From IMG/VR virus record IMGVR_UViG_3300031951_000597, positions 1 to 35,829 of that record: 35,829 nt of DNA, one strand, 5' to 3'. The stretch is from a virus. The notes under the pieces are model-generated. The model was not told where the DNA came from and did not search any database. It was given only the letters and a program-made list of their open reading frames with translations. Made by a program: the position numbers and the translations under genes. Positions within the stretch are counted from its first letter, which is position 1, and each line of letters opens with the position of its first letter. This document shows positions 30,225 through 35,829 of this stretch, piece after piece.

Positions 30225-32537
30225 ATGCAGTCGAGCATCGACATCGCGCAGGTGGCGCGAGAGGCCCTCGCCGCCGCCGATCGGCTGGTGCCCGACTGGT
30301 TGCCCGACGGCCGCCGCTCGGGCCACGAATGGCAGGCCCGCAACCCGCTGCGCAGCGATCGCTCGATCGGATCGTTCAGCGTCAACCTCACGACCGGCGC
30401 CTGGGCCGACTTCGCCAGTGGCGACAAGGGCGGCGACCTGGTCTCGCTGTACGCCTACCTGCACGGCATGAAACAGGGCGACGCGGCCCGGGAGGTCGCG
30501 CGCTCGATCGGCATGACGCCGGCCGCGTCGCTGTCGTCTTCTGCCCCTACGCCTGCGCCCGCGCCTCGCCTGGCCTACGCCACCGACTGGCGGCCGCTGT
30601 TGCCCGTTCCGGCCCACGCGCCGCCCGCGCCGGTGGCCCACATCAAGCGCGGCCGACCGCAGGCCACCTGGACCTACCGTGGCCGCGCGGGCGAGCTGCT
30701 GGGGCACGTCTACCGGTTCACGACCAGCGATGGCGGCAAGGAGATCCTGCCGGTCGTCTGGGCGCGCCACGAGCGCACCGGCGAGGAGCAGTGGCGCTGG
30801 ATGCAGTGGACGCAGCCGCGGCCGCTCTACGGCCTCGACCGGCTGCTCGACGACCGGCCGGTGCTGCTGGTCGAGGGCGAGAAGTGTGCCGATGCCGCGC
30901 ACCAGATGCTCGGCGAGCAGTGGTGCGTCCTGACATGGCCGGGCGGCGGCAAGGCCGTCGCGAAGGCCGACTGGCAGCCCCTGGCGCGCCGCAGCGTCCT
31001 GATCTGGCCCGACTGCGACGCCCAGCGCGACTCGGGCGGCGCGCTGCTGCCGGAGCCTCGACAGCCGGGCATCGCAGCCGCCGAGGCGATCGCGGCGCGC
31101 CTGATCGAGCTCGGCGCGAAGGTCGGCATCGTCCGCATCCCTGCGCCTGGGGCGAAGGCTGCCGGATGGGATGTCGCCGACGCCATCGCCGAAGGCATGA
31201 CGCTCGAGGCCGTGCAGGCCCTTCTGGCGGATCGCCGGCTGCCAGTCGCTGCGCCCCCCGCGCCGACGCCTGCTGCGCCAGCAGACGACTGGACGGCGCG
31301 CCTGCTGTGGAAGCGTGGCGAGTGTTCGCCGTGCCTGTCCAACGTCGTGGCCATTTTGGCCAACCATGAGGCGTGGGACGGCGTGATCGCGTTCGACGAG
31401 TTCGCCTACCGGACCATCAAGCGCAAGCCCATCCCGGGCGCGCGCTCGGCCGACGTCGGCGAGTGGCGCGACGCCGACACCACCGCCGTGAGGATCTGGC
31501 TTACCGAGCAGTACGGCATGGTGGTCGGGCCGCAGGACGTCGATTCCGCGGTCGACCTCGTCGCCCAGATGCACGCCTTCCACCCTGTCCGCGAGTACCT
31601 CGACGGTCTGCGGTGGGATGGCGTGTCGCGCCTCGACCTCTGGCTGGACGACTACCTGGGCGTCGCACGGTCGGAGTACACGACCCGCGTCGCCCGATGG
31701 TTCCTCATCGCGATGGTGGCCAGGGTCTACGACCCGGGCGTGAAGTTCGACTACTGCCTGGTGCTCGAGGGCGGCCAGGGCCTGCGCAAGTCGTCAGCGC
31801 TGCGGATCCTCGCAGGCGAGTTCTTCTCGGACACCGAGCTGGACCTGACGAACAAGGACGCGATGTCGTCCATCCGCGGCAAGTGGCTGCACGAGTTCGC
31901 CGAGATGGGCAGCCTTGCCCGGGCCGAGAACACGCGGCAAAAGTCGTTCCTGTCGCGCCAGATCGACGAGTTCCGCCCGACCTACGCGCGCCGGGAGATT
32001 CGCTGCCCGCGCCAGCTCGTGTTCGCGGGCACCACCAACGACTGGCAGTGGAACAAGGACCCGACCGGCGGGCGGCGCTTCTGGCCCATCGAGATCGGGG
32101 CCGAGATCGACACCGATGCGCTGCGGGCCAACCGCGACCAGCTCTTCGCCGAGGCCGTCCAGGCGTACCGGGCTGGCGAGCGCTACTGGCCGCAGGCCGA
32201 CGAGCAGCGCGTGATCTTCGACCCGCAGCAGCTGCAGCGCGAGGCGGAAGACGGTCTGTTCGACATGCTGCACGACTGGATCGAGGACCTGCCGCGCGCC
32301 GAGTTCACGATGGGCGAAGTGCTCGCGGAGGCCCTGAAGCTCGATGCCGGGCGGATCACGCGCGACGTGACCACCCGCGTCGGTCAACTGCTCAAGAAGC
32401 TCGGCTGCGGCCGGAAGGAGAAGAGGAACGGGACGGTTCGGTTCGTCTACGTGGCGCCGGCCTGGTCGAAGTACCAGCAGGCCGCGCAGGCTTCCAGGAC
32501 GACAGGTGGCGGAGACAGAGATGGGTTGCCGGTTTGA
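30225..32537 (+). CDS. Toprim primase / VirE-type helicase
   Basis: A 770-aa replication protein. Residues ~25-95 (HEWQARNPLRSDRSIGSFSV, WADFASGDKGGDLVSLYAYL) match the N-terminal domain of phage primases. Residues ~213-325 form a Toprim-like domain with VEGEKCADAAH and WPDCDAQ. Residues ~370-660 are the VirE/VapE (virulence-associated E) ATPase: Walker A EGGQGLRKSS (515-524), Walker B WLHEFAE (554-560), sensor-like AGTTNDWQWN and GGRRFWPI. It probably primes and unwinds at the phage origin. The repeat array that starts 11 nt after its stop is the natural candidate site. Confidence 0.88.
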   Translation: MQSSIDIAQVAREALAAADRLVPDWLPDGRRSGHEWQARNPLRSDRSIGSFSVNLTTGAWADFASGDKGGDLVSLYAYLHGMKQGDAAREVARSIGMTPAASLSSSAPTPAPAPRLAYATDWRPLLPVPAHAPPAPVAHIKRGRPQATWTYRGRAGELLGHVYRFTTSDGGKEILPVVWARHERTGEEQWRWMQWTQPRPLYGLDRLLDDRPVLLVEGEKCADAAHQMLGEQWCVLTWPGGGKAVAKADWQPLARRSVLIWPDCDAQRDSGGALLPEPRQPGIAAAEAIAARLIELGAKVGIVRIPAPGAKAAGWDVADAIAEGMTLEAVQALLADRRLPVAAPPAPTPAAPADDWTARLLWKRGECSPCLSNVVAILANHEAWDGVIAFDEFAYRTIKRKPIPGARSADVGEWRDADTTAVRIWLTEQYGMVVGPQDVDSAVDLVAQMHAFHPVREYLDGLRWDGVSRLDLWLDDYLGVARSEYTTRVARWFLIAMVARVYDPGVKFDYCLVLEGGQGLRKSSALRILAGEFFSDTELDLTNKDAMSSIRGKWLHEFAEMGSLARAENTRQKSFLSRQIDEFRPTYARREIRCPRQLVFAGTTNDWQWNKDPTGGRRFWPIEIGAEIDTDALRANRDQLFAEAVQAYRAGERYWPQADEQRVIFDPQQLQREAEDGLFDMLHDWIEDLPRAEFTMGEVLAEALKLDAGRITRDVTTRVGQLLKKLGCGRKEKRNGTVRFVYVAPAWSKYQQAAQASRTTGGGDRDGLPV

Positions 32538-32565
32538 GCCCGAAAAGTTCCACACCTGTTCCACA

Positions 32566-32597
32566 CCTTCCACACCTCCGCGCGGAGGTATGGAAGG
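32566..32597. other. Left flanking inverted repeat in the array
   Basis: A 32-bp inverted repeat with one mismatched pair. Its core ACCTCCGCGCGGAGGT (32574-32589) is a perfect palindrome flanked by CCTTCCA and TGGAAGG. One repeat unit lies in each arm. Confidence 0.8.
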
Positions 32598-32672
32598 CGG
32601 AAACCCGCGCCAATGCTGGAGGTTCCATACCTTCCATACCTTCCACACCTTCCTCCGCGCACCCGCACGGGG

Positions 32673-32706
32673 GCGTGGGCGCGCACGCACGCGTGTACGC
32701 CCACGC
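32673..32706. other. Central hairpin of the array
   Basis: GCGTGGGCG (32673-32681) pairs with CGCCCACGC (32698-32706) around 16 nt of alternating purine-pyrimidine sequence (GCACGCACGCGTGTA). It sits at the centre of symmetry of the 9-mer array. Alternating purine-pyrimidine tracts can adopt Z-DNA; that is a possibility, not evidence. Confidence 0.7.
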
Positions 32707-32773
32707 GCGTGTGCTTTCAACCCTTGAGGTATGGAAGGTATGGAAGAGTCAGTAGTGGCGCGGGTTTCCGGGC

Positions 32774-32798
32774 TCCACACCTCCTCGGGAGGTGTGGA
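32774..32798. other. Right flanking hairpin in the array
   Basis: TCCACACCTCC and GGAGGTGTGGA form a perfect 11-bp stem with a TCG loop. Its core (ACCTCC/GGAGGT) repeats the core of the left flanking hairpin, at nearly equal distance from the centre. Confidence 0.8.
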
Positions 32799-32856
32799 AC
32801 GAGGTGTGGAAGGTGTGGCAGGTGTGGAACCCCGCGCCGTGCGGCCGCCGGGCTGG

Positions 32857-33027
32857 ATGCGTGAGGCGATGCCGACCACGGCGGCCTGGGTTGACGAGCT
32901 GCGGCGCGTGTTCGGCGCCGACCAGGTCGACCCGTCTATCCGCGCAGGGATGGGCGGCGTGCCCGGCAAGTTCCACGCGATCGAGAATGGCCACGAGATT
33001 GGCACCCCGACGCGGGGCCGGGCATGA
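32857..33027 (+). CDS. Small conserved phage protein (56 aa)
   Basis: A 56-aa protein containing AAWVDELRRVFGADQVDPSI and GVPGKFHAIENGHEIGT. This short helical motif (WVxxLRxxFGxxxxDxSIRxGM ... FxAxENGxEIG) recurs in many phages without known role. Upstream in-frame ATGs at 32731 and 32740 would translate the repeat array into low-complexity sequence, so a start at 32857 or 32869 is preferred. It overlaps the next gene by ATGA. Confidence 0.7.
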   Translation: MREAMPTTAAWVDELRRVFGADQVDPSIRAGMGGVPGKFHAIENGHEIGTPTRGRA

Positions 33028-34451: not shown

Positions 34452-35829
34452 ATGGGCGCGCGCGAACCGGTCGAGCTGGTCGATGCCAAGGCGCTGATCG
34501 ACGCGCTGTGGCGCGAGTTCATGGCGCCGCCGGCCGCCGGCACCGTAACGCAGTGGGCCGAGCGCAACCGCGTGCTGTCGGGCAAGGACTCGGCCGAGCC
34601 GGGCCCGTATCGCGTCGCGCGCACGCCGTACTCGCGCGAGCCCATGGATTGCCTGAGCCAGACGAGCCCGGTGGTCGAGGTGGTGCTGCAGTGGGGCGCG
34701 CAGACGTCGAAGACGACGATCGGCAGCAACTGGCTGGGCTACCTGGTGGACGTGAACCCGGGCCCGATCATGATCGTGCAGCCCACGATCGACCTGGCCA
34801 AGCGCTACAGCCGCCAGCGCCTGGCGCCGATGGTCGAGGAGTCGCCGGCGCTGCGGCGTCGCATCCGCGAGAACCGCTCGCGCGACGAGGCCAACACCAC
34901 GCTGCTCAAGGAGTTCACCGGCGGCTTCATGGCGGTGGCCGGGGCCAACAGCGCGGCCGGCCTGCGCTCGATGCCGGTGCGCGACCTGTTCCTGGACGAG
35001 ATCGACGGCTACCCGCTCGACGTCGACGGCGAGGGTGATCCGGTCAAGCTGGCGGAGGCGCGGCAGTCGACGTTCAGCCGGCGCAAGCGCCTGCTGACCA
35101 GCACGCCGACCACGAAGGGCTTTTCGCGCATCGAGCAGCGCTACCTGGCGAGCGACCGCTGCCGCTACCACGTGCCGTGCCCGCACTGCGCCGAGCTGCA
35201 GCCGCTCGAGTGGGGTGCCGACAAGCCGCACGGCATCAAGTGGGACCGCGATCCCGACGGCCACGCCCGGCCCGAGACGGTGCGCTACGTCTGCCGGGCG
35301 TGCGGCGTGGAGATCGCCGAGCACCACAAGACCGCCATGCTGGCCGCCGGCCGATGGGTGGCCGAGTCGCCCGGGGCATCGGACGGGCGGGTGCGTGGCT
35401 TCCACCTGTCGTCGCTCTACAGCCCGCTGGGCTGGCTGAGCTGGGCCGAGCTGGTGACCGAGTGGGAGGCGGCGATGGCCGCCGCCCGTACCGGCGACGT
35501 GAGCCTGCTGCGCGTGTTCGTCAACACGCGGCTGGCCGAGACGTTCGAGGAGCAGGGCGACCGGGCCGACGAGCACTCCCTGCGCCGTCGCGCGACCGAC
35601 ATCCCCATGGGGGTCGTCACCTGGGGACTGTTCGTCTGCACGGTCGGGGCCGACGTGCAGGGCGATCGCATCGAGGCGTATCGCTGGGCCTGGGGGCGCG
35701 GTCTCGAGCGGCAGATTGTCGAGCGCGCGGTCTTCTACGGCGACCCGTCGCAGGCCGAGACCGAGCCCGGCAGCCCCTGGGCGGCGCTTACCGAGTGGCG
35801 CAGGGCGCCGGTGCTGCACGCCAGCGGCA
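34452..35829 (+). CDS. Terminase large subunit, N-terminal part (partial)
   Basis: The ATPase half of a GpA-family terminase, running off the window end and continuing at base 1. Walker A-like WGAQTSKTT is at residues 81-89 and Walker B LFLDEID at 179-185; STPTTKGF (217-224) is the coupling motif. CPHC and CRAC pairs (about residues 243-246 and 283-286) form a zinc-ribbon-like element. With the part at 1-951 the whole is 699 aa. Its last 229 bases here repeat the window start with three synonymous differences. Confidence 0.95.
   Translation, partial: MGAREPVELVDAKALIDALWREFMAPPAAGTVTQWAERNRVLSGKDSAEPGPYRVARTPYSREPMDCLSQTSPVVEVVLQWGAQTSKTTIGSNWLGYLVDVNPGPIMIVQPTIDLAKRYSRQRLAPMVEESPALRRRIRENRSRDEANTTLLKEFTGGFMAVAGANSAAGLRSMPVRDLFLDEIDGYPLDVDGEGDPVKLAEARQSTFSRRKRLLTSTPTTKGFSRIEQRYLASDRCRYHVPCPHCAELQPLEWGADKPHGIKWDRDPDGHARPETVRYVCRACGVEIAEHHKTAMLAAGRWVAESPGASDGRVRGFHLSSLYSPLGWLSWAELVTEWEAAMAAARTGDVSLLRVFVNTRLAETFEEQGDRADEHSLRRRATDIPMGVVTWGLFVCTVGADVQGDRIEAYRWAWGRGLERQIVERAVFYGDPSQAETEPGSPWAALTEWRRAPVLHASG
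35601..35829. repeat. Terminal redundancy, right copy
   Basis: Counterpart of 1-229. Differences at 35603, 35636 and 35702. Joining the contig here closes a circle of about 35,600 bp and restores an uninterrupted terL frame. Confidence 0.9.

Follow-up and report, generated by a model that had tools for sequence, protein, structure and literature searches.

A mirrored array of 9-bp iterons 3' of a TOPRIM-VapE primase-helicase gene is a probable phage replication origin whose iteron sequence follows the C-terminal half of the protein

Introduction

Mapped origins of replication exist for few temperate phages. Iteron plasmids of the RK2, P1 and pSC101 type carry 17-22-bp iterons in one direction, an AT-rich DUE and DnaA boxes, and the centre of the SaPI origin is likewise AT-rich. 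SaPIs carry an iteron origin directly 3' of the initiator helicase gene, and this origin is recognised via the C-terminal domain of the helicase, apparently by two hexamers (PMC7581432). The same source describes the SCCmec helicase Cch2, the C-terminal domain of which binds repeats just 3' of its own gene; this origin is putative, and the binding site holds only three 5-nt iterons, with no iteron dyad reported in the passages concerned (PMC7581432). In the Streptococcus phage Sfi21, the annotated origin is a 302-bp non-coding element (PER) directly 3' of a putative primase gene, and a later article, citing Foley et al., reports it as an independent origin (PMC6356513).

Here, we describe a repeat array in the window, by which is meant the whole stretch of 35,829 nucleotides that was analysed, an IMG/VR virus record. 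The array is very probably a phage replication origin for which the product of the gene immediately upstream (30225-32537) would serve as initiator. As in the SaPIs (PriRep1, 7pds; SaPI5 primase-helicase, 7ola), the window encodes a VapE-type AAA+ helicase, the candidate iteron origin lies directly 3' of the initiator gene, both in the window and in its relatives, and two symmetric sets of iterons flank a central region. In contrast to the SaPIs, the primase is of the DnaG/TOPRIM type and fused to the helicase rather than of the AEP type, the centre is GC-rich with alternating purines and pyrimidines rather than AT-rich, and the iterons are 9-mers in strict 9-nt tandem, accompanied by a mirrored second motif.

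The Sfi21 element occupies the same position 3' of a primase-helicase gene and has the same dyad layout in a gap of ~300 bp. Its GGTTACT dyad, found with a relaxed rule after the strict detector had missed it, has 35 nt from outer to inner copies, inner steps of 8-9 nt, an inner gap of 84 nt and 30 nt to the outer copy, with AAACCC in both spacers; the layout was reproduced in none of 600 shuffles and occurs nowhere else in 15.7 kb. The two systems differ in the iteron and in the centre, which is AT-rich in Sfi21 and alternating GC/GT in the window. None of 30 primases gave a tblastn match to the Sfi21 region at E 1e-3, and the orf382 helicase is not BLAST-similar to the window protein, P0001, although a wider SF3/D5 fold common to both is possible. 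With a centre that is not AT-rich, and with no BLAST homology to the Sfi21 initiator, the window locus is placed in neither the SaPI nor the Sfi21 family.

Further likenesses are found in Cch2, with repeats just downstream of a helicase gene, and in the primase-polymerase/helicase of phage NrS-1, which has a related helicase fold in its C-terminal region (Z 15) but a primase-polymerase of the AEP type. In iteron plasmids, too, initiator-bound repeats adjoin the initiator gene, whereas the window has 9-bp sites in both orientations, a GC-rich centre and a self-loading-type helicase, and so falls outside that class. The kind of origin is thus known, namely iteron origins adjoining a self-loading helicase (SaPI/Sfi21 type), and the window carries a variant that would work like them. 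As far as the open literature shows, four things are new: a layout that recurs over many phages independently of sequence, a second motif in mirrored copies, a centre of alternating purines and pyrimidines, and a C-terminal half that is coupled to the origin like a cassette; no earlier description of this iteron, of VirE-type origins or of alternating purine-pyrimidine phage origins was found there.

Results

The array and its dyad symmetry

The sequence GGTRTGGAA/TTCCAYACC occurs as 12 exact copies and two with one mismatch (at 32773 and 32812), all within 282 nt (32548-32829), a count that bears out the preliminary description of this DNA. The primase-helicase gene encodes 770 aa, and the array starts 10 nt past its stop codon (Table 1). 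With up to one mismatch allowed, 19 matches are present in the window against 5.84 expected, a number reached by none of 100 shuffles. From left to right, three outer copies point leftward and one rightward, followed by a 27-nt spacer and three inner leftward copies; beyond the 78-nt centre lie two inner rightward copies, a 27-nt spacer, one leftward copy and four rightward copies.

The placing of outer and inner blocks about a centre, as described previously, is confirmed, and a long inverted repeat with 61-nt arms (32581-32641 and 32727-32787, 82% complementary) makes the dyad even larger than first described. The inverted-repeat search also returned an outer repeat (32566-32581/32582-32597, 94%) and a central one (32665-32688/32691-32714, 79%). 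The former corresponds to the left of two flanking ACCTCC/GGAGGT repeats noted earlier, and the right one (32774-32798) is visible directly in the sequence.

A reading of the array as translated repeats was ruled out: both orientations are present, some copies are put out of frame by spacings of 11 and 19, the frames across the array carry stops or are not common to relatives, and the length of the centre differs among relatives. In one relative (L047), the homologous downstream gene begins past the array. A GC-skew switch, proposed earlier as a sign of an origin, was not seen at the array, a check that is weak given the gene direction and the small size.

Table 1. Features of the array and of the upstream gene for the probable initiator (window coordinates)
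Feature	Position	Strand	Basis
Initiator P0001, 770 aa: TOPRIM primase, VapE-type AAA+ helicase and C-terminal winged helix	30225..32537	+	Pfam, AF2 model, structure alignment
Winged-helix codons, residues 677-743 (helix 713-725, wing strands 729-734 and 738-743); predicted iteron reader	32253..32453	+	AF2 model secondary structure; co-variation peak
Outer left iterons, three copies of TTCCACACC (32548, 32559, 32568)	32548..32576	-	repeat search
Outer left inverted iteron GGTATGGAA, opposite 32568-32576 in the left hairpin	32587..32595	+	repeat and inverted-repeat search
Spacer of 27 nt on the left, containing the second conserved motif, GGAAACCCGC	32596..32622	.	mirrored copy in the right spacer; motif recurs in most of the 76 relatives
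Inner left iterons, three tandem copies in 9-nt steps	32623..32649	-	repeat search
Centre between inner arms; probable opening region	32650..32727	.	66-123 nt long in relatives
Alternating purine-pyrimidine tract, containing the hairpin described earlier (32673-32706)	32673..32714	.	alternation scan
Inner right iterons, two tandem copies	32728..32745	+	repeat search
Spacer of 27 nt on the right, containing the mirrored copy of the second motif, GCGGGTTTCC	32746..32772	.	mirrors left motif
Outer right inverted iteron, one mismatch (CTCCACACC)	32773..32781	-	repeat search
Outer right iterons, four copies (32791, 32803, 32812 with one mismatch, 32821)	32791..32829	+	repeat search

The probable initiator protein

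P0001 matches the Pfam VapE-like domain at E 5e-74, and its AF2 model has a mean pLDDT of 86.8. Residues 122-343 align with T7 gp4/DnaG primase cores and residues 354-750 with PriRep1 in complex with dsDNA (7pds; Z 33, 26% identity), a match also given by phmmer (E 2e-48) and Foldseek (E 1e-28). The closest solved relative of P0001 is PriRep1, a VapE-type helicase solved with dsDNA; the next structural matches of the helicase region are the NrS-1, SaPI5 and D5 helicases.

One layout, many iterons

A scan of IMG/VR on DNA alone, for three tandem 9-mers, yielded 38 contigs. Two of these (L009 and L024) have just 3-4 copies, all direct, and lack a primase; they were rejected as matching the pattern by chance and left out together with a contig that is cut off (L022). 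In every array locus with enough context, the array sits directly 3' of a P0001 homologue and is not scattered over the relatives. Nearly all of these loci, which span 46 to 69% GC, have copies in steps of 9 nt, an outer-to-inner distance of 36 nt and ~90 nt between the inner arms, in mirror image. In one locus (L015:2923-3241), an apparent duplicated left arm lies ahead of the standard dyad.

Primase relatives found by protein similarity and lacking GGTRTGGAA have the same layout with other iterons, including GGTTGGGAA, GGTTAGGAA, GGTTGGACG, ACTGTGAC and AGTGGGACG. Among isolates, the layout is found in Marinobacter phage PS3 (iteron GGGGTGACC), in Rhodobacter phage RcAqua (AGGGTGAG) and in Pseudomonas phage Haddon (GTGGGACA), where one gene lies between helicase and array. 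A layout detector, given no iteron sequence, was applied to the 1.5 kb 3' of each VapE-type homologue at 224 loci and to 224 control stretches. The dyad, which consists of outer iterons, a spacer of ~27 nt, 2-3 inner iterons, a centre of 66-123 nt and the mirror image, was detected at 105 of 224 loci, a proportion inflated by loci chosen for their repeats (33 of 214 evaluable), and in none of the controls; at 90% protein identity, 76 loci are non-redundant. Where loci had been picked by protein alone and had enough downstream sequence, 17 of 21 carried the layout in the P0001 scan, and profile scans gave 29 of 77 (viral) and 24 of 77 (bacterial genomes). The most frequent arrangement is six iterons per half (32/76 loci), and twelve copies in total are present in 33/76. 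The layout is conserved over loci of about 45-70% GC, and Sfi21 is the only one of the phage records examined to have an origin annotated at it. In three prophage-bearing genomes (3.1-4.3 Mb), no tandem iteron was found elsewhere. Dechloromonas sp. CZR5 (L160) is one of the prophage carriers.

In the wider set of VapE homologues, roughly half, most of them less than 40% identical, have no such layout within 1.5 kb; for instance, it was not found for the distant homologues of Acidovorax phage Aval, Variovorax phage VarioGold and Burkholderia phage Mica. No VapE gene is annotated in Staphylococcus phage phi13. Other kinds of array are present 3' of some VapE genes. In Paenibacillus, Bacteroides, Listeria and Enterococcus phages (L235, L236, L238 and L241), an asymmetric array with the right arm reduced or absent has one full set of iterons, such as CTGCAACA, CGTTTAC, TGTCAAC and TGGATAC, beside an alternating tract, with nuclease and DEAD-box helicase genes next. 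Dense TGATGCAACA repeats with no strict dyad lie 3' of the VapE helicase gene of Staphylococcus phage SAP11 (L239:3300-3640), and nine further loci (L108, L120, L121, L128, L202, L205, L208, L218 and L223) carry 11-16 copies of an 8-mer, for example AGGTGCAC, GGTCCGGG or TTCCAGTG, in layouts not accepted by the detector. These 8-mer arrays are probably further origin variants.

Spacer motif and alternating centre

The spacers of the window contain a second mirrored motif that is absent from the preliminary description. Among relatives the spacers are mostly 27 nt long, and the mirrored motif reads roughly GAAACCCGC or GCAAGCCTTG.

The centre is conserved as a pattern of alternation and not as a sequence. 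In the window, where it is GC-rich, the maximum for a 28-nt stretch is 25 alternating steps out of 27, and the ten top stretches of the 35.8 kb all start between 32673 and 32687. Over the 76 loci, the mean purine-pyrimidine alternation of the centre is 0.67 against 0.49 expected from composition, and in 59 of them the 28-nt stretch with the highest alternation anywhere in the locus falls in the ~85-nt centre (0.8 expected). The alternating centre is present also in loci of 46-47% GC (L034 and L038) and missing in a few (L117, L135, L140, L149 and L057). In Paenibacillus, Listeria and Enterococcus phages with VapE helicases, the best alternating stretch of the locus adjoins the asymmetric array.

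Folding of the centre is mildly better than that of dinucleotide shuffles (mean z -1.34, with 21/76 below -2), shuffling itself disrupting the alternating block, and alternation is the stronger signal. The central hairpin described earlier does exist as an inverted repeat; it is better described as part of the alternating tract, which by its nature is quasi-palindromic.

The iteron follows the C-terminal half of the protein

Iteron distance was compared with protein distance over 68 full-length non-redundant proteins. The correlation with the C-terminal half (residues 361-772) is strong (rho 0.70, 0/499 permutations) and that with the N-terminal half (residues 1-340) weak (rho 0.16); as partial correlations, the C-half given the N-half retains 0.69 and the N-half given the C-half 0.005. 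A co-variation of the array with the primase C-terminus, put forward earlier as a check, is thus observed. In 40-residue windows, a sharp step occurs at the linker, near residue 350, and the highest values are found at 581-620 and 701-740. The second of these peaks (rho 0.73) lies inside the winged helix and coincides with the DNA-binding fold of the AF2 model, and this winged helix is the predicted reader of the iteron. Residues 723, 728, 732 and 740 are candidate positions for iteron preference in proteins with the iterons TTCCATACC and GTCCAACC. For SaPIs, a link between the C-terminus of Rep and the iteron may already have been described.

The downstream gene does not follow the iteron, with a rho of 0.10 and homology in 3.6% of the pairs that share an iteron, so the co-variation is not mere linkage. 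Natural exchanges point the same way. Loci L053 and L057 share ~98% of the N-half and have flanks (N-half and downstream DNA) that are 88-94% identical, whereas the C-half (~53% identical) and the whole array have been exchanged, with iterons GTCACAGT and TCCCACTT. Together with the downstream-gene control, this exchange argues against physical linkage as the sole cause. In L063 and L183, the N-half is 53-58% identical to that of the window but the C-half and the iteron (GCAGGGTT) are different, and proteins with only 12-16% N-half but 64-69% C-half identity have retained similar iterons. Such exchanges of C-half and array provide ready-made pairs with which the reading of a 9-bp site by a winged helix could be mapped.

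Probable origin function and alternative explanations

We infer that the array has origin activity, that the iterons are bound, that a double hexamer assembles and that the DNA is opened at the centre. In the proposed mechanism, the C-terminal winged helix of the initiator would bind the 9-bp iterons, and the VapE-type AAA+ domain would assemble as a hexamer on each half-site, for which the typical six iterons per half would be suited. The two hexamers, anchored by the iterons on either side, would face each other over the centre, open its alternating purines and pyrimidines and then become the two replicative helicases, with the fused TOPRIM domain priming both strands. The chances appear evenly balanced for a more specific proposal: that the opening element is a non-B-prone alternating tract rather than an AT-rich one, that two facing hexamers load on 6+6 iterons, and that the helicase/winged-helix half and the origin travel together as a single exchangeable cassette, which sets specificity and diversifies much as the incompatibility groups of plasmids do. 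We speculate that iterons may diversify to escape resident prophages, satellites or decoy origins with the same iteron.

Several other functions have to be weighed against an origin. The initiator or another phage regulator might sit on the iterons as on an operator and control downstream transcription, with replication starting elsewhere. Replication initiators often autoregulate, and the array does lie between two genes, the downstream one beginning just past the last iteron. However, the array sits 3' of the gene of its presumed binder, the downstream genes are unrelated in most same-iteron phages, with the 3.6% of homologous pairs given above, and a mirror-symmetric element of ~280 bp that holds 12 sites around a patterned centre goes beyond what an operator requires. 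The Sfi21 equivalent is, in addition, reported as an origin (PMC6356513), and an operator or autoregulatory site is unlikely. Less likely still is a structured RNA, attenuator or terminator arising from transcription of the primase operon. It would account for the long inverted repeats and mirrored arms, but the array has no Rfam family and only chance-level miRNA and sRNA matches, its copies hold one consensus rather than pairing (in the left outer hairpin, TTCCACACC against GGTATGGAA leaves a C-A mismatch), and the iterons are exact while the centre varies in length and sequence.

A partition (centromere) or packaging (pac/cos) site, also raised in the preliminary description, is similarly improbable. 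Inverted arrays of short repeats also mark parS-like sites, and TerS starts ~1.1 kb downstream in the window phage, but the array follows the replication protein in phages and prophages whatever unrelated genes come next, it co-varies with the primase-helicase C-half, and no ParA/ParB gene was seen among the proteins examined. A chance or low-complexity repeat in a GC-rich genome can practically be dismissed: alternating GC/GT is common in high-GC DNA, but the repeats exceed all 100 shuffles, and the layout is kept from ~45 to 70% GC and absent from all 224 controls. An origin recognised by the VirE/VapE-type primase, as proposed earlier, is the best explanation, though not as a wholly new type in view of the SaPI and Sfi21 precedents. 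Because the layout can be recognised whatever the iteron, it points to a probable origin, together with its initiator, in the phages and prophages of a wide range of Proteobacteria (betaproteobacteria, Pseudomonas, Marinobacter, Rhodobacter). The alternating tract raises the question of whether a GC-rich origin lacking an AT-rich element can be opened via Z-DNA, a cruciform or weak pyrimidine-purine stacking.

Genome context

The short protein encoded downstream of the array (32857-33027, MREAMPTTAAWVDELRRVFGADQ...) has no Pfam match, and no PHROG match was obtained for the longer ORF (32731-33027); the short protein recurs after the array in several relatives (for example L047 and L052). Positions 170-229 repeat the final 60 nt of the window; no second exact copy of its first 20 bases was found. 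The terminase large subunit leaves the right end of the window and continues from the left end, so that the record appears to be an almost complete, circularly permuted genome whose ends overlap by ~229 nt (1-229 and 35601-35829).
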